Positions 6,897 to 40,137 of a stretch of DNA of 64,000 nt are shown one piece after another (position 1 is the first letter of the stretch; each line of letters opens with the position of its first letter). The notes under the pieces are model-generated. The model saw only the letters and a program-made list of their open reading frames with translations. It had not been told where the DNA came from and ran no database searches. The DNA comes from Desulfotomaculaceae bacterium (GTDB lineage: Bacteria > Bacillota > Desulfotomaculia > Desulfotomaculales > Pelotomaculaceae), in the NCBI GenBank assembly GCA_028696455.1, contig JAQVGZ010000001.1, forward strand, positions 34,585 to 98,584, in the 5' to 3' direction. A program made the position numbers and the translations under genes.

Positions 6897-7067
6897 ATCT
6901 TAATCAAAAACTGATAAATTGGCTCATTAATCAATCCAACCCACAGCATCTCAGTGCTGGTCACATTTTAGATCTTACAATAGCATTAATAAAAATGGTA
7001 AATATATAATCTTGCTGGTAATTTTGTAGTATAATAACTAATATAGACGTTTTGCCTAAGTAAATAC

Positions 7068-7162
7068 TTCTCCGAGTCCAGTTGCCTGTCGTTAATAGCC
7101 ACGGCAGTTGGGCCTACAGGTGTAGTTGGAAACGGGTACACCTCCCATTGCGAAAAGGAGAG
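7068..7162 (+). promoter_or_regulatory. Moco/Tuco-type riboswitch candidate, copy A
   Basis: Outer stem TTCTCC/GGAGAG encloses a CCAG...TTGG arm and a GGTGTA/TACACC arm carrying GGAAAC, followed by the stretch CTCCCATT...AAAAGGAGAG. The same architecture occurs at 15011-15105 (minus) and 15624-15719 (plus). I recognise this layout as the Moco RNA motif (molybdenum or tungsten cofactor aptamer, Rfam MOCO_RNA_motif); the name is from memory, the shared structure is seen. A terminator hairpin follows at 7186 and the phosphoesterase/ECF operon starts at 7302, giving a transcription-attenuation layout. Confidence 0.7.
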
Positions 7163-7185
7163 ACATGATATCATCTGCGCTTATT

Positions 7186-14990: not shown

Positions 14991-15010
14991 ATAGCAAAAT
15001 AAAGCATTAT

Positions 15011-15105
15011 GTCTCCTTTCCAACATGGGAGGCAGACCAGTTTCCCGGTGTACCCTAACGGCCAGCAACCATACCTTTCGGCTTAGATTTAACTGGCTCG
15101 GAGAA
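15011..15105 (-). promoter_or_regulatory. Moco/Tuco-type riboswitch candidate, copy B (minus strand, no gene behind it)
   Basis: On the minus strand: TTCTCCGAGCCAG...CTGG arm containing GCCGAAAGG, then GGGTACACCGGGAAACTGGTCTGCC, CTCCCATGTTGGAAAGGAGAC. The outer stem is TTCTCC/GGAGAC (one weak pair at the end). Shares layout and the GGGAAAC, CTCCCAT and AAAGGAGA stretches with copies A and C. Downstream there is only a strong terminator (14951-14990) and then plus-strand genes, so it controls no obvious gene. It may be a relic, or a stand-alone ligand-binding or decoy RNA. Confidence 0.7.
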
Positions 15106-15235
15106 TTTATTTAATTGTATTTAATTGCATTAATATCACTTCTTCATTCCTTTCAAAATTCCTGCTACATAATAATATTCTAAAAAAAATTTTTCCTGTA
15201 GAAAAACGATACTACCATCACTGTTAACGAGAGTG

Positions 15236-15267: not shown

Positions 15268-15623
15268 TGTACTATGAAGCTTTATGTGTAGCTGTAGTCT
15301 ATATTATATGAGATCAGTTGGCGGCAGTAATAAAAAAAGCCTCGACTCAGAATGTGTACTGGGTGTCGCTGGTCAAACTAGGTTTTTTCCTAGTTAATAA
15401 AGGTTTTACCTCTAATAAATCAACCCGAACCACATTTATGGCTTCGGCATTTAGAACTGCAGCCATACTTAATAAAATACCATTATTAGGAAGGGGGCTA
15501 CGCTATAAAGCTCTGCAAATAGATTTTTTTATTTTAAACAACATCAGTTAGGATATTCCAAGAAATTATTGCAGGAATTTGTTACTTAATAGTCGAAAAA
15601 ATAAGCAATAAAGTACAAATAAT

Positions 15624-15719
15624 CTCTCCGATCCAAACTACCTAAAGCACTAAAGCAATGGTTTTTGGACGACAGGGTACACCAGGAAACAAGTGTGCCT
15701 TCCATTATGAAAAGGAGAG
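15624..15719 (+). promoter_or_regulatory. Moco/Tuco-type riboswitch candidate, copy C
   Basis: Outer stem CTCTCC/GGAGAG; a TCCAAA...TTTGGA arm; a GGTACAC/GTGTGCC arm with CAGGAAACAA; then TTCCATTATGAAAAGGAGAG. Same plan as copies A and B. A very strong terminator follows at 15733 and the first downstream gene is the 15931 mini-protein, then the DDTDS protein at 16249. Confidence 0.7.
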
Positions 15720-15732
15720 CTGGTTTATAAGT

Positions 15733-15778
15733 ATGCCGTGCCAGCTTTGTTTTTCGCAAAACTGGCACGGCATTTTTT
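15733..15778 (+). terminator. Terminator/expression platform of riboswitch C
   Basis: 12-bp stem ATGCCGTGCCAG/CTGGCACGGCAT, extendable through CTTTG/CAAAA, followed by six Ts, 13 nt after the aptamer. Typical attenuator placement. Confidence 0.8.
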
Positions 15779-25911: not shown

Positions 25912-25965
25912 GGAGGGCTTCTGGAAAAGTTGATTTGCTGACAGGTGATTTACCAATTAAATAGG

Positions 25966-26275
25966 ATTACTCTAATAGTGTTAGGAATAATTGTTTTTAA
26001 GTCATTTTGTAATTTGTTTAAGTGGACATAAAAAAATAGCACAGAGGATTAGAAAAAGAACGGTTAGGATTAATGGAGTTAACCTAAAAGTGTTAGCGAT
26101 ATTTAGAATATTCCACCTTTATGTACTAGTTATTTTAAGGATATAAAGAGCGCTATAAAAATGAGGTGAGCGTCAAAAGAATTAACCTGAAAGTGTGAAG
26201 AATATTTAGAATTTTCATTCTTGACAAACATTTCTTTGTTTGTTAATGTGAACATAAATAAATACATAGAGGGGA
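25966..26275 (+). repeat. Three degenerate leader repeats upstream of bamB-1
   Basis: The motif ttaacctaaaagtgttagcgatatttagaat recurs, more or less degenerate, at ~25966, ~26079 and ~26182, i.e. at ~103-113 bp spacing. The first and third are each followed by gtttaagtggacataaa...agagg-like sequence, the third supplying the real RBS of bamB-1; the second is followed by a weaker version. It looks like an old triplication of a promoter/leader unit. No gene lies in this 370-bp gap. Confidence 0.55.
26221..26249 (+). promoter_or_regulatory. Predicted sigma-A promoter of bam module 1
   Basis: TTGACA at 26221-26226, 17-bp spacer, TAATGT at 26244-26249, placing transcription start ~26 nt before the bamB-1 ATG. 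This is the last of the repeated leader units. Confidence 0.6.
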
Positions 26276-28779: not shown

Positions 28780-29949
28780 ATGAAAGAAGAGGATTTCGTG
28801 GAAACTGTAACCCCCTTCAAAGAAGTAATTGATGAAATAAAGCAGGGCGGCGGAGAAGCCGTCAAATACTGCTACCAATGTGGGAAGTGCGATACTGTTT
28901 GCCCCTGGAATAAGGTAAGAACTTTCAGTATGCGCAAGCTAATCCGGGAGGCTACCTTCGGTTTGACCGAAATTGAGAATGAAGAAATCTGGCGCTGCAC
29001 CACTTGCGGGAAGTGCGTCCAGAAATGCCCGCGTGACGTCAAGCAGATTAATAACATGATCGCAGTGCGCCGGATGGCCACCGGCTATGGTGTATTTCCT
29101 GCCGCTGTCAAGCCGATCCGCGGAATTGCCTCCAACCTAGGCGCAGAAGGCAACCCTTTCGGTGAAAGCCGGAAAAATAGGGCGGATTGGGCCGATGGTC
29201 TCTCCGTTAAAACCTTTGAGGAAGGCATGGAAGTTCTATATTACCCCGGCTGCTACCTCTGCTATGACCCAAGGTTGAAGAAGGTAGCCAAAGCCACGGC
29301 CAGTGTCCTCAACAGGGCCGGAGTGGATTACGGGATCCTGGGCGAGCAGGAGAACTGCTGCGGGGAAAGCATCCGCAAGACCGGCAATGAGGAATTGTTC
29401 AGGAAATTAGCCAAAGATAACATCAAAACGTTTATCGAAAACGGTGTTAAGAAAATAGTGGTATCTTCCCCGCACTGCTTACACACCTTCAAGAACGAGT
29501 ATCCTGAATTTATGGCGAATTTTGAAGTATTGCATATAACCGAGTTTTTGTTCCAGTTGATTAACGAGGGAAGACTACAAATCAATAAGGAATATGCGAA
29601 GAAAATTGTATATCATGACCCCTGCTATCTAGGCCGGCATAACGGTGTGTTTGATCAGCCGCGCGGGATCTTAACGAAGGTACCCGGTCTGGAACTAAAA
29701 GAATTTGCCGAGTCGCGGGAAGAAAGCTTCTGCTGCGGCATGGGTGGTGGCAGGATTTGGATGGAAACACATACTTCCGACCGGTTCTCCAACCTCAGGT
29801 TGAAAGACGCCATTGACCTTGGCGCTGAAGAACTGGTTACCGCATGCCCCTATTGCATCACCATGTTTGAGGACAGTAGAGCGGTTGGAAACTTAGATGA
29901 CGTGATCCAAGTCAAGGATATCACGGAGGTTCTCAACGAGGTGATTTAG
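28780..29949 (+). CDS. bamD: BamD-1: HdrD-like CCG-domain Fe-S protein
   Basis: 389 residues. Two N-terminal [4Fe-4S] motifs (CYQCGKCDTVCPW, CTTCGKCVQKCP) followed by two CCG/DUF224 domains (ENCCGES, SFCCGMGGG) as in heterodisulfide reductase subunit D. In the Bam complex this subunit links the HdrA-like flavoprotein to the ferredoxins. ATG start. Its stop overlaps the fdhD start by one base. The protein is identical to that at 38159 (see the repeat entry). Confidence 0.85.
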   Translation: MKEEDFVETVTPFKEVIDEIKQGGGEAVKYCYQCGKCDTVCPWNKVRTFSMRKLIREATFGLTEIENEEIWRCTTCGKCVQKCPRDVKQINNMIAVRRMATGYGVFPAAVKPIRGIASNLGAEGNPFGESRKNRADWADGLSVKTFEEGMEVLYYPGCYLCYDPRLKKVAKATASVLNRAGVDYGILGEQENCCGESIRKTGNEELFRKLAKDNIKTFIENGVKKIVVSSPHCLHTFKNEYPEFMANFEVLHITEFLFQLINEGRLQINKEYAKKIVYHDPCYLGRHNGVFDQPRGILTKVPGLELKEFAESREESFCCGMGGGRIWMETHTSDRFSNLRLKDAIDLGAEELVTACPYCITMFEDSRAVGNLDDVIQVKDITEVLNEVI

Positions 29950-30727
29950 TGGCGAGGAAGCCGGACATGCAGGAAGCAATTGGAGTAACCGGTATGAAAG
30001 ATGTAGTAGCGGAGGTAATCTGTGATCGCTTTTCAGAGGGTGGATGGCTCAGGACCGCGGCTTACATGCCTAGAGAGATGGAGTTAACCATCTATGTGAA
30101 TGAGAAAGCGCTGGTTACTATCTTGTGCACTGCGGCCAAGCTGGATTATCTTGTCTTTGGCTACCTTTACGCCGAGGGAATCATCTCATGCGCCGGCGAT
30201 GTGGCAAGCGTACGGTTGAGTAAAGAGGAATCGCTGGCCGACGTGAGGCTGAAGAACCCTAGGAATGAATTGCCGACGTTGCGCAAACTTGGCTGCAGCG
30301 GCAGTTCAATTTTTAAAACTCAAGGACAAAGAGTTAATTCGGATCTTGTTGTTGCACCGGAGGAAGTGCTGTCACTGATGCAGAAATTGCAAGAGCAGAT
30401 GGAGCTGTATCCGATTAGTGGCGGCGTGCACACTTCCGCTCTATCCGATACCAAGAACCTGCTGGTGGTGGCTGAGGATATCGGACGTCATAACACCTTG
30501 AACAAAATCCAGGGCGAATGTTTATTGCGGGGTATACCAACCAGGGATCGTCTAGTGCTGATTACTGGCCGCATATCGTCCGAGATGCTGCTCAAGGCGG
30601 CAAGGATGGAAACGCCGGTTGTTGTTTCACGGCACGCGCCGACGGAGAACGCCATTTTACTTGCACGTGATTTGGGCATTACCCTGGTTGGCCAGGCCCG
30701 TAATAGCCGCCTAGCGGTGTTTACCCA
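28781..30727 (+). repeat. 1,947-bp exact repeat, copy 1 (bamD-fdhD)
   Basis: Identical, as far as I can read, to 38160-40106 at a constant offset of 9,379 bp. The match begins one base into the bamD start codon (ATG here, GTG there) and ends ten codons before the fdhD stop. Flanking paralogues are clearly diverged on both sides. Confidence 0.9.
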
Positions 30728-30758
30728 TCCGGAGCGGCTTGGTTTGCCGACAAATTAA
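29949..30758 (+). CDS. fdhD: FdhD-1: sulfurtransferase for Mo/W cofactor maturation
   Basis: 269 residues of the FdhD family, which hands sulfur from cysteine desulfurase to the metal-bound bis-MGD cofactor. Family blocks: KLDYLVFGYLYAEGII, GGVHTSALSD, EDIGRHNTLNKIQGECL, TGRISSEMLLKAARM, VSRHAPTENAI and ITLVGQ. The usual two-cysteine loop is reduced to one (LGCSGSS). GTG start overlapping the bamD stop, so it is translated with the complex genes and probably matures the tungsten cofactor of BamB (inference). Identical to the 39328 copy except at its last ~11 residues. Confidence 0.88.
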   Translation: MARKPDMQEAIGVTGMKDVVAEVICDRFSEGGWLRTAAYMPREMELTIYVNEKALVTILCTAAKLDYLVFGYLYAEGIISCAGDVASVRLSKEESLADVRLKNPRNELPTLRKLGCSGSSIFKTQGQRVNSDLVVAPEEVLSLMQKLQEQMELYPISGGVHTSALSDTKNLLVVAEDIGRHNTLNKIQGECLLRGIPTRDRLVLITGRISSEMLLKAARMETPVVVSRHAPTENAILLARDLGITLVGQARNSRLAVFTHPERLGLPTN

Positions 30759-30806: not shown

Positions 30807-33800
30807 GTGGAAGAAGAACTGTTGTTAAAAGATAAGATTCAACAACTTCGCGATAGTGGTGGCTCCAATTTTGGAGACGTTATGATTGTTGGTGGCGGAA
30901 TCAGCGGTATTCAAGCCTCCCTTGATCTGGCCGCTGCTGGTTTTAAGGTCTACCTGGTTGAAAAAAAGCCGAGCATCGGGGGCCATATGGCTCAACTGGA
31001 TAAAACGTTTCCCACCAATGACTGCTCCATGTGAATACTCGCACCCAAGCTGGTCGAGGTCGGCCGGCATCCAAATATTGAGGTCCTGACATATACTGAA
31101 GTGGACAGCATTGTCGGGGAAGCAGGGGATTTTAAGGTCAAGCTGATCAAAAATCCCAAGTATATCAATGAGGAGAAGTGCACGGGCTGTACTGTCTGTG
31201 TGGAGTACTGCCCAGTCAAATATCCGGATGAATTTAACCAGGATATTTCCATGAACAAGGCTATTCACATCTTTTTTCCTCAGGCGATTCCTTTAGTCGC
31301 CTATATTGATGAAAGCTGTCTATACCTGAAAGAGAATAAGTGTCGTATTTGCGAAGGAGTATGTAAAAATAATGCAATCGATTTGAAACAATTGCCGGAA
31401 ATTAAAGAGATCAATGTGGGGGCGGTAATTCTGGCCCCCGGCTTTGAGCCGTATGATCCCAAGCTCCGGGCGGAATATCACTACGGTGATTTCGTAAACG
31501 TGATCACTAGTATGGATTTTGAACGGCTGTTGAGCTCCACCGGTCCATATTCTGGTGAGATCCTGCGTGCTTCCGATAAGAAGCACCCTCACAAGTTGGC
31601 CTGGATTCAGTGTGTCGGCTCTAGGCAGGTTACCGAGGGTGGCCATAGTTATTGTTCAGCCGTATGTTGCACTTATGCACAGAAACACGTGATTTTGACC
31701 AAAGACCACGACGTTGATGCCGAGTGTACAATTTTCCACAATGATATCCGCTCCTATGGGAAGGATTTTGAGCGGTTCTACGAAAGGACAGTAAGGTTGC
31801 CCGGGGTCAGGTTTATTAGAAGCTATACCTCAATCGTAGGAGAGGACCCGGTAACCAAGAATGTCACCATCCGGTATTCTACACCCGATAATGGTGTAAA
31901 AGAGGAAGAATTCGACATGGTGGTGCTGTCCATTGGCTTGAGTCCTCCTACTGGTGTGAGGGAAATGGCGAAAAAGTTTGGCATTGAGCTTACCGCACAC
32001 GATTATTGCAAGCTCAATCCGGCCAATCCGATGGAAACTAACAGGCGCGGGATTTTCGTCAGCGGTGCTTTCCAGGGACCGATTGATATTCCAGAGTCGG
32101 TATTTAGCGCCAGTGGTGCCGGCTCCCAGATTGGCGAGCTGCTTAACCGCAGGCGGGGGAACCTGTCCACGGAAAGGGTATATCCGGAGGAGCAGGATGT
32201 TTCTGAGGAGGAGCCGAGGGTAGGCGTCTTTGTCTGCCACTGTGGCGCCAACATTTCCCGGGTAGTCAGCATTGGGGCCACAGTAGAGTATTGCAAGACC
32301 TTGCCAAACGTTGTCCATGCCCAGGAACAGCTATTTTCATGCGCCACCAACTCTGCCAAGGAGATCACCGACACGATCAAGGAGAAAGGGCTCAACCGCG
32401 TGGTTGTTGCCGCCTGCTCCCCCAGAACGTTGGAGCCGTTATTCCGGGACACCGTCCGGGAGGCGGGAATTAACCAGTATTACTACGAAATGGCTAATAT
32501 CCGGGAGCATGATTCCTGGGTCCACTCGAGGGAAAAAGAAGAAGCCACCAAGAAGGCGTGGGACATCATTCGGATGTCGGTAGCCCGGGCCTGCAACCTT
32601 GAGCCGCTGCAGGAGTTTGACCTGCCGGTAAATAAGGCGGCTCTGGTGGTTGGCGGGGGTATTGCCGGTATGGTTTGCTCCCTCTCCATCGCTAATCAGG
32701 GGCATGAGGTTTACCTGGTTGAGAAGGATATGGCCCTGGGGGGGATCGCCCGTAGAATAAGCCATACCCTGGAAGGTATGGATGTCCAGGTCTATTTACG
32801 CGACATTACTGAAAAGATTTATAAACATCCCTTAATCCATGTTTATACCGGAGCCACCATTACGGAGGCCACTGGTTATATTGGGAATTTCGTCACTACG
32901 GTGAGGTCTAACCGGGGGATTGCGGAAATAAAACATGGTGCTGCCATCCTGGCTATTGGCGCAGATCTATACACACCGACTGAATACCTGTACGGTGAAG
33001 ATGAACGGGTCATGACCCATCTGGAGCTGGATGAAGAAATCAAAAGGAGCAGCGAAAAAATTGCCAACGCGGAAAGCGTTGTAATGATTCAGTGTGTCGG
33101 TTGTAGAAATGAGGACAGGAATTATTGCAGCAGGATCTGCTGTAGCGAGTCTGTGAAAAATGCCCTGAAGTTAAAAGAGATGAATCCTGAGCGGGATGTC
33201 TACATTCTCTTCCGGGATATCAGGACATATGGGCTGAAAGAGGATTATTACCGGGAGGCTGCCAGTAAAAATATCAGGTTTATTCGTTATGAGCCTGAGG
33301 ATCCGCCTGTGGTGGAGCCTGGCGAGTCAGATGAGGGTAAACCTGTGCTAAAGGTTACCGTAACCGATCCGGTACTGTTGAAAAAAATTGAATTGGACGC
33401 TGACATCCTTGCTCTGGCGGCTGCTGTGATCCCCTCAGAAGCAATCAAGGAAGTAGCTGCATTATTCAAGGTAGTATTGAGTCCTGACGGCTTCTTCAAA
33501 GAAGCTCACGTCAAATTAAGACCTGTTGAGTTTGGTACAGACGGTGTTTACTTGTGTGGAGCGGCTCACTATCCCAAGTTTATCCAGGAAACCATTAACC
33601 AGGCTTATGGAGCTGCAGGCCGGGTCTTAACGTTGCTCTCGCATGATATAGTTGTCGCCTCCGGCGCTGTTTGCGAGATAGATGAGAAGAAGTGCATGGG
33701 GTGCGGGGCATGTGCCGCAGTTTGTACCTATGGCGCCCTAAGTCTAAATGATACAAGATTGGGCAAAAAGGCAGTAATTAATCCTGTACTATGTAAAGGA

Positions 33801-33905
33801 GATGGCCTTTGCAACGCCAAATGTCCAACAGGGGCTATTTCACTCAAGCACTTTACCGATGACGAGATCATGAGCGAAATTGATGCTCTGGTTGGAGGAT
33901 TGTAG
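30807..33905 (+). CDS. bamE: BamE-1: HdrA-like flavoprotein with selenocysteine (UGA codon 76)
   Basis: 1,032 residues if UGA 31032-31034 is read as Sec. The ORF track splits it into 30807..31034 and 31101..33905, both in one frame. Two FAD domains ([37 protein letters not shown]) and ferredoxin sites [30 protein letters not shown] and GDGLCNAKC. Sec replaces the second Cys of the HdrA motif (NDCSM-U-ILAPKL), a cluster ligand in HdrA. BamE-2 has Cys here. A strong hairpin follows the UGA. GTG start with GAGGTGATAG upstream. Expected role: flavin-based electron bifurcation in the Bam complex (from Hdr chemistry). Confidence 0.85.
31032..31068 (+). promoter_or_regulatory. SECIS element of BamE-1
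   Basis: UGA at 31032-31034, then after 14 nt a continuous 8-bp stem GCTGGTCG/CGGCCGGC (two G-U pairs) with loop AGGT. Loop starts 22 nt after the UGA and has G at its second position, as the bacterial SECIS rule expects. Confidence 0.75.
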
Positions 33906-33940
33906 AGATTTCTGGATACTAACGCAGGAGGTGAAAACAA

Positions 33941-34780
33941 ATGAGTGCAGAGCTTAAATTTAAACCGAAAATATTAGGTTTTGCATGCAACTGGTGAGCA
34001 TACGGCGCTGCAGATTTGGCTGGAGTTTCCAGACTACAATATGCTACTGATATGAGATTGCTCCGCGTCATGTGTTCCGGCAGAGTGGACCTAAAACATG
34101 TGCTCAGGGCCTTCTCGAAAGGAATGGACGGGGTGTTTATCGGCGGTTGCCACTATAATGAGTGCAACTATATTACAAATGGTAATTACCACGCGCTAAA
34201 CATGGTGCTGTTAGCTAAAAGGCTCCTGGAGCACATCGGGCTGAACCCGGAGCGGCTAACCATGAGGGTGATGTCCGGAGCTGAGGCAAACCTATATGCC
34301 GATCATGTTAATAGTTTTATTAAGACGATCAAGGGGTTGGGTCCGCTTGGCCAAAGCGAAGGCTTGGATAAGGAAGAACTGGCTGAAAGCCTTGCCAGGG
34401 TTACGAAGTTGGTCCCCTACATTAAGATCATGAAGAATGAAAAACTAGGGACGTTCCTTATGAATGAAGATGATTACGAGGGTCTGTTCACCAGAGATGA
34501 GATTGATAAATTGTTCAATGAAATGATCTCGTATTATATTGACCCGGTCAAGTGTCAGGCCTGTATGACCTGTGCCAGGAGATGCCCGGAAGGAGCGATT
34601 ATCAGCGCCAAAGGGCAGGTCCACATCATTGACCAGGATAAGTGTATCAGATGCGGTTCCTGCATGGCTGGATGCCCGCCGCGCTTCGGCGCAATCAGAA
34701 AGCTGGAAGGTGGCGAGCCCGTACCGCCACCGCCACCGGAAGGTGAAAGGGCTGTGGTCAGGAAAGCCAAAGCACAATAA
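33941..34780 (+). CDS. bamF: BamF-1: MvhD-like selenoprotein with C-terminal 2[4Fe-4S] domain
   Basis: 279 residues with UGA at codon 19 as Sec; the ORF track misses the start. ATG 33941 follows AGGAGGTG. The N-terminus reads GFACNW-U-AYGAADLAG, the CNWC motif of MvhD/hydrogenase-delta proteins with Sec for the second Cys. The [2Fe-2S] site is completed by RVMCSGRVD and GCHYNECNY. A ferredoxin domain is added at the C-terminus (CQACMTCARRCP, CIRCGSCMAGCPP). MvhD links HdrA to an electron donor. This long version probably makes contact with extra ferredoxin or NADH-type subunits. Followed by a strong terminator at 34843. Confidence 0.85.
33995..34032 (+). promoter_or_regulatory. SECIS element of BamF-1
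   Basis: UGA 33995-33997; hairpin CTGGA-GTT-TCCAG at 34020-34032 with G first in the loop, 27 nt after the UGA. The same hairpin is conserved base for base in bamF-2, including synonymous positions. Confidence 0.7.
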
Positions 34781-34842
34781 CTTCACGTTAAATATAGCTA
34801 ACAAGGTTAGCTAAAAGAAATTTAAAAATATTACCTATCTTT

Positions 34843-34889
34843 AGCAGTATAAATTGTTGAAACAGGTTTCGACAATTTATACTGCTTTT
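34843..34889 (+). terminator. Terminator of bam module 1
   Basis: 15-bp perfect stem AGCAGTATAAATTGT/ACAATTTATACTGCT, extended by TGAAA/TTTCG, then TTTTG. Lies 60 bp after bamF-1. Confidence 0.85.
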
Positions 34890-35636
34890 GTCTTGTTATC
34901 ATACAGTGTATGACTTTCATACATAACTAAGAAAGTCTTCTCTCAATAATATACCCACCAATCTTTTATAACATAGCTGACGCAATCATTTAATGGAAAA
35001 CAATAACTCTATGAAGTAGGGAAGTGCTGTCCAACAGGCGAACCTGCAATATTGCAGTGAGAAATTTTCTCATTACTCAGGTCCTAATGGTAGTTAGCAT
35101 GATAATTGCATGACAATAGCAGTGGGCGATAGTAGAAAGCAATTGATAATATAAAACCTAAACTTCAGAAAAAGGCAAGGGGGGATTTCACGCAACTTTG
35201 AATTAATTATAGCCGTTATAACACTCAGATGTTGACTATTTAATGAGAGGGGAGGCTTTAGTCCCATTACATGTACCCTGACTTAAGATGGTGCTTTTAA
35301 TAGTGGCCTCCGCCATTAAAGTAATGAACTTAAGTAAAGGGGGAATAATCAGGGGCGAATTACAAGAAAACCTTTCAAGCGATGTTAACAAGCAGGGTGA
35401 ACTACCACAAGTTTCCAGGATAACTACTTAATAGTCCATTGAGAACATGTGCACAGAGTTCCTAAAAGACAAAGATAGATTGTAGCCTGTAAGAGTTTTA
35501 TGTACAGACGTAAACAAATGTGTTTAAAATTGTGAATCTGAGCACAATGGTGCCCAATTATAAGAAACTTCGTGGCTGAAGGTCATGGCTACGGAGATAC
35601 CCGCATGGGTAAAAAGATATGTAGAGGGGTTAAAAA
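34890..35636 (+). other. ~750-bp unexplained leader upstream of bamB-2
   Basis: No ORF of note on either strand. Locally paired segments: GGAGGC...GGCCTCC around 35250-35320, and a dense stretch GGGCGAATTACAAGAAAACC ... AATAGTCCATTGAGAAC ... GCCTGTAAGAG from ~35350 to 35510 that reads like structured RNA, possibly group-II-intron domain I-like. No reverse transcriptase and no domain V were found. It may be a long regulatory leader of bam module 2. Confidence 0.4.
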
Positions 35637-37577
35637 ATGAGGTACGCAGAGACAGGGTTTAATTTAGAAGTTGATTTGACTAAAGGAAATATTGAGAGGG
35701 TAGAAACTGACCCTAAATTAACTGAACTTTATTTGGGTGGTCAGGGTACTGCTGCCAAACTCTTCTGGGACAGGGTTCCTCCTGAAGTCAAACCCTTTGA
35801 TCCCGAAAACCTACTCATGTTCAGCGCCGGCCTTTTACATGGCACTCCTGTTCCAGGTGCCAACCGTACTTCTGTCAATACCATTTCTCCCGCCACAGGC
35901 TTATTTGGACATTCCTTAATGGGAGGGTTCTTCGGGCCGGAACTCAAGTACGCCGGTTACGACAAAATCATCATTCGCGGCAAGTCGCCCGAACTGGTTT
36001 ATTTGTGGATCCACAATGACAAAGTAGAAATCCGTGATGCCAGTCACCTTAAAGGATTGGGCATTAACGAAACTACGAAGGCCATTAGACAGGAATTAGG
36101 TGAACCCAGAGCCCAAGTGGCCTGCATTGGTCCGGCTGGTGAAAACCGGGTCTATACAGCTAGTATCGATTGCGGTTGGTCCAGCGCAGCCCGCGGGATA
36201 GGCCCGGTTATGGGAGACAAAAGGTTAAAAGCAATTGCCGTGCGTGGCACTAAAGACATTTACGTTGCCCACCCGCAAGAACTCTATGAAGAATGCAGAA
36301 AGATGTATAAGAAAATTAATGACAGCGATGGTTGCGGTGACTGGATGGCAGTCGATGAGGATGACAGCTTCCACCACAACAATTTCGCCTGGGGTAATGC
36401 CCGGACGCGGATAAAAAATTACTGGAGCGCTGAACTGCAAGAAAGATGGACACGCTGGAAATATGATAACATGGACCGGCAAATGGGTTGCTTTGCATGC
36501 CCGAAGGGTTGCATTAACGTTATTTCCTGGCAGGATAAACCTCGCTTTGCCTATAAATGCTACGGCAAAGATACCTACCATATGGCTGCCTTTAAAGAGC
36601 TGGACTACACCTATGGTATGCTTGGTAAAGCTATAAATTACGGTCTGGACTCCTACTCAACGGCACAACTCCTGGCGTTTGCTGTTGAGCTTTACGAGGC
36701 TGGTATTTTAACTGATAAGGATCTGCCTAATTTCCCGAAAGATTCCGGAGATAGAATCCTGTATCTCATGGAAATGGTTGTTCACCGGGAAGGGATTGGA
36801 GATACTTTAGCCTATGGCATTACTAAAGCGGCTAAAATGATTGGTAAAGGTGCAGAAAAATACGACCACAATACCGTAAAAGGATTCGAACAGTTGCCGA
36901 TTAAGCTAGGAAAGCTAAACCCCGCTTACTTCCTGATGATTGCCACCGCAGAAAAGATGGCAATCACCCAGATTGAGGGGTCATTCCCGCAGGATCCGTT
37001 GCCAACTATCGAAGAGAGGCAAAAGTTCTGCGATGAATGGGAAGCGGTGCCTCATGGTTCAAAGTTTAAACAATATTTTATGGAGTGGGAAAAGAGAAAC
37101 GAAATCTCTGATGACAGGACTTGTGAAATTGTTGACTGGAATGAAACCATGCACTACGTTGATGACTCCACCGGTCTTTGTGGTTTTGTGTCATCCTTTA
37201 GAGGTCAGTTTGGCGGAAAAGTTGCCTATCACTTGAATAATGTGCCTAAGTTTGTCACGCTGGCAACAGGTATTGAGTTTGATACAGACGGGCTATGGGA
37301 AATTGCTAGAAGAAACCGGACATTGATTAGAGCCATTAACAATAGACTGGGACTGCGGAGAATACATGATCGTCCGCCGGAAGACCACTGGGCAGTAAGA
37401 GACGAAGAATATGAACAAAAGCTGCTAAGTCAGTATTATGAATTCAGAGGCTGGAATATGGATGCCATTCCTACCAAGGAAACTTTATATAAACTGAAAC
37501 TGGACTATGTGGCCGATGAGTTAATCGAGCGGGGAATTCTGACCGAGGATGATTCCGACAAAGAGAAAGCACTATAG
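35637..37577 (+). CDS. bamB: BamB-2: divergent tungsten AOR-family subunit
   Basis: 646 residues. Same family and layout as BamB-1 (MRYAETGFNLEVDLT, KYAGYDKIIIRGKSP, VMGDKRLKAIAVRGTK), but the cluster region is GCFACPKGCINV instead of SCYNCPLKCGATI. The middle and C-terminal parts differ widely (KELDYTYGMLGKAINYGLDSYS; SSFRGQFGGKVAYH). BamB-1 is nearer the Geobacter BamB I remember, so this copy may act on another aromatic or alicyclic acyl-CoA, or run in another direction. ATG with TAGAGGGG upstream. Leads the second module. Confidence 0.82.
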   Translation: MRYAETGFNLEVDLTKGNIERVETDPKLTELYLGGQGTAAKLFWDRVPPEVKPFDPENLLMFSAGLLHGTPVPGANRTSVNTISPATGLFGHSLMGGFFGPELKYAGYDKIIIRGKSPELVYLWIHNDKVEIRDASHLKGLGINETTKAIRQELGEPRAQVACIGPAGENRVYTASIDCGWSSAARGIGPVMGDKRLKAIAVRGTKDIYVAHPQELYEECRKMYKKINDSDGCGDWMAVDEDDSFHHNNFAWGNARTRIKNYWSAELQERWTRWKYDNMDRQMGCFACPKGCINVISWQDKPRFAYKCYGKDTYHMAAFKELDYTYGMLGKAINYGLDSYSTAQLLAFAVELYEAGILTDKDLPNFPKDSGDRILYLMEMVVHREGIGDTLAYGITKAAKMIGKGAEKYDHNTVKGFEQLPIKLGKLNPAYFLMIATAEKMAITQIEGSFPQDPLPTIEERQKFCDEWEAVPHGSKFKQYFMEWEKRNEISDDRTCEIVDWNETMHYVDDSTGLCGFVSSFRGQFGGKVAYHLNNVPKFVTLATGIEFDTDGLWEIARRNRTLIRAINNRLGLRRIHDRPPEDHWAVRDEEYEQKLLSQYYEFRGWNMDAIPTKETLYKLKLDYVADELIERGILTEDDSDKEKAL

Positions 37578-38158: not shown

Positions 38159-39328
38159 GTGAAAGAAGAGGATTTCGTGGAAACTGTAACCCCCTTCAAA
38201 GAAGTAATTGATGAAATAAAGCAGGGCGGCGGAGAAGCCGTCAAATACTGCTACCAATGTGGGAAGTGCGATACTGTTTGCCCCTGGAATAAGGTAAGAA
38301 CTTTCAGTATGCGCAAGCTAATCCGGGAGGCTACCTTCGGTTTGACCGAAATTGAGAATGAAGAAATCTGGCGCTGCACCACTTGCGGGAAGTGCGTCCA
38401 GAAATGCCCGCGTGACGTCAAGCAGATTAATAACATGATCGCAGTGCGCCGGATGGCCACCGGCTATGGTGTATTTCCTGCCGCTGTCAAGCCGATCCGC
38501 GGAATTGCCTCCAACCTAGGCGCAGAAGGCAACCCTTTCGGTGAAAGCCGGAAAAATAGGGCGGATTGGGCCGATGGTCTCTCCGTTAAAACCTTTGAGG
38601 AAGGCATGGAAGTTCTATATTACCCCGGCTGCTACCTCTGCTATGACCCAAGGTTGAAGAAGGTAGCCAAAGCCACGGCCAGTGTCCTCAACAGGGCCGG
38701 AGTGGATTACGGGATCCTGGGCGAGCAGGAGAACTGCTGCGGGGAAAGCATCCGCAAGACCGGCAATGAGGAATTGTTCAGGAAATTAGCCAAAGATAAC
38801 ATCAAAACGTTTATCGAAAACGGTGTTAAGAAAATAGTGGTATCTTCCCCGCACTGCTTACACACCTTCAAGAACGAGTATCCTGAATTTATGGCGAATT
38901 TTGAAGTATTGCATATAACCGAGTTTTTGTTCCAGTTGATTAACGAGGGAAGACTACAAATCAATAAGGAATATGCGAAGAAAATTGTATATCATGACCC
39001 CTGCTATCTAGGCCGGCATAACGGTGTGTTTGATCAGCCGCGCGGGATCTTAACGAAGGTACCCGGTCTGGAACTAAAAGAATTTGCCGAGTCGCGGGAA
39101 GAAAGCTTCTGCTGCGGCATGGGTGGTGGCAGGATTTGGATGGAAACACATACTTCCGACCGGTTCTCCAACCTCAGGTTGAAAGACGCCATTGACCTTG
39201 GCGCTGAAGAACTGGTTACCGCATGCCCCTATTGCATCACCATGTTTGAGGACAGTAGAGCGGTTGGAAACTTAGATGACGTGATCCAAGTCAAGGATAT
39301 CACGGAGGTTCTCAACGAGGTGATTTAG
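38159..39328 (+). CDS. bamD: BamD-2: HdrD-like CCG-domain Fe-S protein
   Basis: 389 residues, identical to BamD-1 apart from a GTG instead of ATG start codon. Same two ferredoxin motifs and two CCG domains. There is no clear Shine-Dalgarno in the short gap from bamC-2, unlike copy 1 (AAAGGA), so expression may differ. It overlaps fdhD-2 by one base. Confidence 0.85.
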   Translation: MKEEDFVETVTPFKEVIDEIKQGGGEAVKYCYQCGKCDTVCPWNKVRTFSMRKLIREATFGLTEIENEEIWRCTTCGKCVQKCPRDVKQINNMIAVRRMATGYGVFPAAVKPIRGIASNLGAEGNPFGESRKNRADWADGLSVKTFEEGMEVLYYPGCYLCYDPRLKKVAKATASVLNRAGVDYGILGEQENCCGESIRKTGNEELFRKLAKDNIKTFIENGVKKIVVSSPHCLHTFKNEYPEFMANFEVLHITEFLFQLINEGRLQINKEYAKKIVYHDPCYLGRHNGVFDQPRGILTKVPGLELKEFAESREESFCCGMGGGRIWMETHTSDRFSNLRLKDAIDLGAEELVTACPYCITMFEDSRAVGNLDDVIQVKDITEVLNEVI

Positions 39329-40106
39329 TGGCGAGGAAGCCGGACATGCAGGAAGCAATTGGAGTAACCGGTATGAAAGATGTAGTAGCGGAGGTAATCT
39401 GTGATCGCTTTTCAGAGGGTGGATGGCTCAGGACCGCGGCTTACATGCCTAGAGAGATGGAGTTAACCATCTATGTGAATGAGAAAGCGCTGGTTACTAT
39501 CTTGTGCACTGCGGCCAAGCTGGATTATCTTGTCTTTGGCTACCTTTACGCCGAGGGAATCATCTCATGCGCCGGCGATGTGGCAAGCGTACGGTTGAGT
39601 AAAGAGGAATCGCTGGCCGACGTGAGGCTGAAGAACCCTAGGAATGAATTGCCGACGTTGCGCAAACTTGGCTGCAGCGGCAGTTCAATTTTTAAAACTC
39701 AAGGACAAAGAGTTAATTCGGATCTTGTTGTTGCACCGGAGGAAGTGCTGTCACTGATGCAGAAATTGCAAGAGCAGATGGAGCTGTATCCGATTAGTGG
39801 CGGCGTGCACACTTCCGCTCTATCCGATACCAAGAACCTGCTGGTGGTGGCTGAGGATATCGGACGTCATAACACCTTGAACAAAATCCAGGGCGAATGT
39901 TTATTGCGGGGTATACCAACCAGGGATCGTCTAGTGCTGATTACTGGCCGCATATCGTCCGAGATGCTGCTCAAGGCGGCAAGGATGGAAACGCCGGTTG
40001 TTGTTTCACGGCACGCGCCGACGGAGAACGCCATTTTACTTGCACGTGATTTGGGCATTACCCTGGTTGGCCAGGCCCGTAATAGCCGCCTAGCGGTGTT
40101 TACCCA
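38160..40106 (+). repeat. 1,947-bp exact repeat, copy 2 (bamD-fdhD)
   Basis: Second copy of 28781-30727 in the same orientation. The two direct repeats enclose fdhD-1 end, bamE-1, bamF-1, bamB-2 and bamC-2. Homologous recombination between them would delete 9,379 bp and leave one hybrid module. Confidence 0.9.
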
Positions 40107-40137
40107 CCTGGAACGACTTTGTTGCTTAACAAATTAA
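39328..40137 (+). CDS. fdhD: FdhD-2: sulfurtransferase for Mo/W cofactor maturation
   Basis: 269 residues, identical to FdhD-1 up to FTH, then LERLCCLTN instead of PERLGLPTN. The exact repeat ends at this point. Same family assignment and same single-Cys LGCSGSS loop. Two identical FdhDs are not needed for function, so the copy probably rides along with bamD. Confidence 0.88.
   Translation: MARKPDMQEAIGVTGMKDVVAEVICDRFSEGGWLRTAAYMPREMELTIYVNEKALVTILCTAAKLDYLVFGYLYAEGIISCAGDVASVRLSKEESLADVRLKNPRNELPTLRKLGCSGSSIFKTQGQRVNSDLVVAPEEVLSLMQKLQEQMELYPISGGVHTSALSDTKNLLVVAEDIGRHNTLNKIQGECLLRGIPTRDRLVLITGRISSEMLLKAARMETPVVVSRHAPTENAILLARDLGITLVGQARNSRLAVFTHLERLCCLTN

Follow-up and report, generated by a model that had tools for sequence, protein, structure and literature searches.

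The leader of bamB-2 is a composite of a 5' promoter-like block, a fast-diverging middle and a 3' element of ~85 nt that ends at the bamB start codon and whose counterparts lie at the start of bamB in many other genera. We favour, at roughly even confidence, the reading that this element is a bamB-specific component of the 5' untranslated region that may act at translation initiation through a host factor. The chances also seem evenly divided as to whether the two ends of the leader are its functional parts. The window referred to below is the whole stretch of DNA that was analysed, 64,000 nucleotides in length. The name bamB-2 is taken from the first-pass annotation, which was made from the sequence alone, and from the operon context. 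The features that enter the argument are these:

34843-34886 (+): intrinsic terminator hairpin ending bam module 1, a 20-pair stem followed by TTTGTCTTGT; found by a terminator scan and as an inverted repeat
34890-34936 (+): promoter- or operator-like block, conserved in the bamB leaders of G013 and G017; promoter role putative
34937-35552 (+): fast-diverging spacer, probably untranslated; no intact protein homologue and no Pfam family
35553-35639 (+): bamB-leader element (covariance model R1), reaching from the hairpin past the Shine-Dalgarno sequence to the bamB ATG; R1 E 3.4e-18 (G000:C80:70137-70223), alignments A1 and A2
35568-35596 (+): predicted hairpin CUUCGUGGCU-GAAGGUCAU-GGCUACGGAG of 10 pairs, from the minimum free energy (MFE) fold and pair counts; covariation suggestive only
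35623-35629 (+): Shine-Dalgarno sequence AGAGGGG of bamB-2, nearly invariant among copies of the element
35637-37577 (+): bamB-2, an open reading frame whose product, the catalytic subunit of class II (ATP-independent) benzoyl-CoA reductase, can be aligned with bamB homologues from end to end
7058-7176 (+), 14997-15115 (-) and 15614-15733 (+): Moco/Tuco riboswitches (RF01055), found by cmscan

The first-pass annotation had described a long stretch without open reading frames between a terminator and bamB-2, and this was borne out: the gap of ~750 bases is bounded by the terminator-like hairpin on one side and by the bamB-2 ATG at 35637 on the other, and no open reading frame in it exceeds 63 amino acids in any frame. 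Its proposal that the leader is a complex structured RNA did not survive, since the folding energy of the complete leader is no better than that of shuffled sequence (MFE -165 for 34922-35640 versus a shuffled mean of -160.7, z -0.66, with 6 of 20 shuffles equally good). No Rfam family passed the gathering cut-offs in the leader, and a cmscan search of 34780-35700 at E<=10 returned chance matches only, mostly eukaryotic microRNA models placed on the terminator hairpin. The paired stretches that the annotation had singled out (about 35354-35500) had no credible match at that threshold and are poorly conserved beyond about 35384, even in the nearest homologue.

Two identities had been suggested for this RNA. 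Group II introns share with the leader only their length and the missing open reading frame, which are also the points in favour of a remnant of such an intron or of another mobile-element relic. Neither domain V nor domains D1-D4 of any group II family were matched at E<=10, and the region has no stable global fold. The genome itself holds no second copy, the sole other match to the leader being that of the terminator hairpin, a palindrome, against itself, and all relatives have the conserved part anchored to the bamB start codon, which is not how a mobile element behaves. We give a relic of this kind practically no chance of being correct. A large structured regulatory RNA was rejected because of the z value above and because the middle is conserved in only one other genus; what remains of that idea is regulation by a much smaller, conserved and bamB-specific 3' element.

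That element comprises a short GC-rich hairpin (CGCAGC-loop-GCTGCG), then GAGATACCC, an A-rich and presumably single-stranded stretch, and AGAGGGG, and it abuts the bamB ATG; the segment between the hairpin and the A-rich stretch reads GAGAUACCC. The consensus of alignment A1, built from 21 leaders, is roughly gCGCAGCtnAAGGCCATGGCTGCGGAGATACCC-n-GGGGCTAAAAAGATAnnTAGAGGGGTTnAAAAATG. In a DNA search of 100 relatives most of the length of the leader was found only in G013 and G017, which belong to another genus of the same family, while the 3' end alone matched many further genera and always adjoined bamB. Covariance model R1 gave 39 matches at E<1e-3 in 24 of 113 genomes of the order, many of them training sequences that match by construction, and every one of the 39, each checked, ends at a bamB start codon. 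Matches outside the training set came from G101, G102 (two further copies), G105-G107, G112, G200 and G389, some of which are close to training sequences. When 399 genomes of the phylum were sampled, 10 of 11 matches lay at bamB starts; the single exception, L207, precedes an unrelated gene. The ten include L211 (937-1557, - strand; G389), where a copy of the element is followed by the first bamB codons (MRYAETD) fused to the end of a bamD-like gene. In G389, bamB has been deleted and its leader and start retained.

Between genera that keep the element the identity of the BamB proteins is only about 50-75%, and the conserved block takes in the Shine-Dalgarno sequence at a near-constant distance from the ATG, its 3' ~25 nt being expected to be conserved in any case as an ordinary Shine-Dalgarno region. 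Cis-regulatory leader elements are characterised by conserved non-coding sequence whose position 5' of homologous genes is fixed, and that is what we found. It is not a general property of bamB. Several copies of the gene in the same lineage are without it, including bamB-1 of the window, in whose leader (25912-26275) the hairpin part is missing and only the end near the Shine-Dalgarno sequence matches R1 (24 bits, E 0.028). In a set of 77 loci of bamB relatives, most of them from other phyla, the only strong R1 score besides those of the Bacillota loci L110 and L115 was at L086, which is labelled Syntrophobacterales and was in the R1 training set.

Placed on a tree of 136 BamB sequences, which is provisional as a FastTree product with some short rows, the presence or absence of the element needs 21 changes, at least 14 of them forced by well-supported branches. 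Both deep branches of BamB include carriers of the element, all of them Bacillota with the exception of L086, and close non-Bacillota relatives of BamB-2 (68-69% identical, L049-L053) do not have it. Its distribution on this provisional tree tracks the lineage of the host, Bacillota, rather than that of BamB. Two histories are conceivable, an ancestral element with losses beyond the phylum or the re-attachment of leaders to bamB genes as these arrived, and a host-encoded partner would fit each.

The 3' edge of the leader folds above chance (35530-35650, z -2.55; a 60-nt core, z -3.9), and in relatives the mean z of the element was -1.0 versus -0.67 for control stretches. Across 30 sequences the CGCAGC/GCTGCG hairpin is formed in 88.6% of cells and two of its pairs are changed on both sides. 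The covariation score of alignment A2 was reached by 28 of 500 shuffles for six pairs and by 12 of 500 for nine, three outer pairs having been added, values that carry the caveat that in making A2 the sequences were fitted to the hairpin of the model itself and that related sequences can reach such a score in the absence of structure. Covariation in A1 was not above that of shuffles, and RNAalifold proposed no structure for A2. The hairpin has 10 pairs in the window and 14 in L181, and other relatives break it; a second hairpin (CCC/GGG) survives in no more than about three quarters of them and contributes no covariation. Covariation is thus suggestive only for a secondary structure in the element.

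A coding role was considered for the same segment. In the frame that reads QLKAMAAEIPEGAKK, conservation is 0.82, 0.85 and 0.81 at the first, second and third codon positions, the distances between anchors in the element differ by one or two bases, and stops are frequent. Equal codon phases, frame-breaking indels and stops together indicate that present selection is not on a peptide, so coding was rejected as the present constraint and kept as a possible origin. The origin would be a translationally coupled upstream gene whose decayed 3' end, reading QLKAMAAEIPEGAKKI(L/Y)RGV*, once overlapped the bamB start, and whose present conservation would reflect only shared ancestry and the Shine-Dalgarno sequence. 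The frame is indeed open in several relatives, where it ends at or overlaps the bamB ATG, and in some it continues in frame from a bzdN-like N-terminal fragment. We nevertheless regard such a vestige as unlikely: third codon positions are as conserved as the others, indels of one or two bases and stops break the frames in most relatives, no intact gene with such a C-terminus was found in 100 relatives, and conservation free of selection is improbable given the divergence of the flanks.

The element might instead work at the level of DNA, as a promoter, or as a site bound by a transcription regulator, that adjoins the bamB start by chance. Strong sequence conservation with little covariation would suit such a site, as would the palindromic make-up (CTGCGCAG, CCATGG) visible in the alignments. 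The block, however, runs into the Shine-Dalgarno sequence at a near-constant distance from the ATG and contains no recognisable promoter on the + strand. Several relatives share a promoter-like block, and in them the element follows 200-300 nt further downstream, from which we infer that it should be transcribed. The fixed position and the upstream block make action on the mRNA likelier than a DNA operator, and we consider a DNA-level site somewhat unlikely. The element as part of the mRNA, our preferred reading, would probably control access of the ribosome to bamB, and is likely to be either a landing site for a host factor (an RNA-binding protein or a small RNA) or a hairpin that serves translational standby or stability. 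That it is a riboswitch, binding a small molecule such as the tungsten/molybdenum cofactor, benzoyl-CoA or another and gating the Shine-Dalgarno sequence, seems very unlikely to us. The element does adjoin the Shine-Dalgarno sequence, its CCC could pair with the next GGG or with the Shine-Dalgarno sequence itself, bamB needs a tungsten cofactor, and Mo/W-cofactor riboswitches occur three times in the window; yet it is short and has one weakly supported helix, the CCC and its pairing persist in no more than about three quarters of relatives and show no covariation, and no Rfam family, RF01055 included, was found in the leader or over the element in ten relatives. The Moco/Tuco RNA is likewise a leader element of Mo/W-related genes, but the bamB element is much shorter and matches it in neither sequence nor structure.

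The closest comparison is with orphan conserved leader motifs of bacterial 5' untranslated regions, candidate cis-regulatory RNAs that are likewise short non-coding blocks, fixed 5' of one kind of gene and found by comparison. Most accepted motifs of this sort differ in resting on clear covariation, which for the bamB element is suggestive only. A limited search of the open-access literature found no description of a leader element at bamB, and we take it to be an orphan conserved leader motif, apparently undescribed. We judge it quite unlikely that the element belongs to a new class of small RNA sensors or protein-binding sites that serves class II benzoyl-CoA reductase specifically. If it did, Bacillota hosts would have repeatedly attached the element to bamB genes of different origin, and the output of a tungsten enzyme would be controlled at translation by cofactor, substrate or a dedicated regulator. 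Class II benzoyl-CoA reductase is a strictly anaerobic, ATP-independent enzyme. Its control in Gram-positive bacteria appears little studied, as far as a limited search of the open-access literature can tell, and a host-tied element of ~85 nt offers a small and directly testable target. It may also serve as a sequence tag for the bamB copies of one control circuit in genomes with several of them; Desulfotomaculum gibsoniae has six (PMC4148979).

The ~600-nt middle of the leader can be aligned in one other genus only, that of G013 and G017, whose own leader copies show no difference from one another over 860 nt. In a global alignment with them 454 of 715 columns are identical, sequence upstream of the leader being included, and the best-conserved blocks are 34890-34936, 35283-35384 (80%) and the 3' ~90 nt. 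This nearest homologue lacks 92 nt of the leader (35190-35281). A putative coding remnant, the short open stretch LKMVLLIVASAIKV... (35282-35431), was rejected as having no intact homologue in 60 relatives and no Pfam family. The middle is best taken as weakly constrained spacer that possibly holds decayed pieces of genes.

At the 5' end, the block at 34890-34936 is common to that same genus and contains a perfect palindrome, CATACAGTGTATG (34900-34912), flanked by the weak hexamers TTATCA (34896-34901) and CATACA (34918-34923). A promoter with an overlapping palindromic operator here would probably start transcription just past the module-1 terminator. The palindrome occurs once in the window. 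A strict pattern based on the G013/G017 version matched only those two bamB leaders in 31 genomes, a result that is uninformative on a wider regulon and in which the variant of the window itself is excluded by design. The first 34 bases of the leader have a 94% match in G003:C1 (L009), but the exact palindrome is absent there.

Several relatives carry something else in front of the element. In L036, L040, L110, L115/L177 and others it is directly preceded by the first ~45 codons of a BzdN-like subunit, mostly interrupted by stops. The L036 fragment matches BzdN of PDB 8s02 (E 1.6e-9) and at the DNA level shares 76% identity, across 115 nt, with the beginning of an intact bzdN-like gene in G055 (L130), the upstream region of which also resembles that of the fragment-carrying bamB leaders. 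This likeness indicates that the upstream region of a bzdN-like gene, together with its 5' end, now stands before bamB in these leaders, so that part of a class I (ATP-dependent) reductase gene has landed before a class II gene in some relatives. The element itself has no similarity to BzdN past the YAA position, and no bzdN fragment can be recognised in the leader of bamB-2 in the window. The bamB genes of L036, L038, L040, L043, L110, L115 and L194, from several genera, have in common a promoter-like block (CATGCTTTTAAGCGATTTTATTTAATC...TACAAT) that resembles the region upstream of the bzdN-like gene of L130, which suggests that class I and class II benzoyl-CoA reductases may have a common regulator.

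The two bam modules of the window share a 1979-bp block (28780-30758 and 38159-40137), containing bamD-like and FdhD-like sulfurtransferase genes, that is 99.4% identical (11 differences), unlike the neighbouring bamB, bamC and bamE-like genes, which have diverged between the modules; the block was recently either duplicated or subject to gene conversion. In module 1 the bamE/HdrA-like gene (30807-33905) carries a TGA in frame (31032-31034) directly after ...TNDCSM, where the copy in module 2 has Cys (CSMCIESPK), and this TGA is a likely selenocysteine codon. The MvhD-like bamF of module 1 (about 33935-34780) also appears to read through a TGA, MSAELKFKPKILGFACNW*AYGAADLAGVSR, a further candidate for selenocysteine.

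Two of the three RF01055 riboswitches in the window are divergent and about 500 bases apart, and the first (7058-7176) stands before a series of genes, with an ABC/ECF-type transporter and a MobB-like gene among them. RF01055 was also seen in two relatives, G048 and G057 (L006, about 2632-2751, - strand; L007, 153-272, + strand), roughly 1.1-1.3 kb upstream of a bamB that has the leader element as well.
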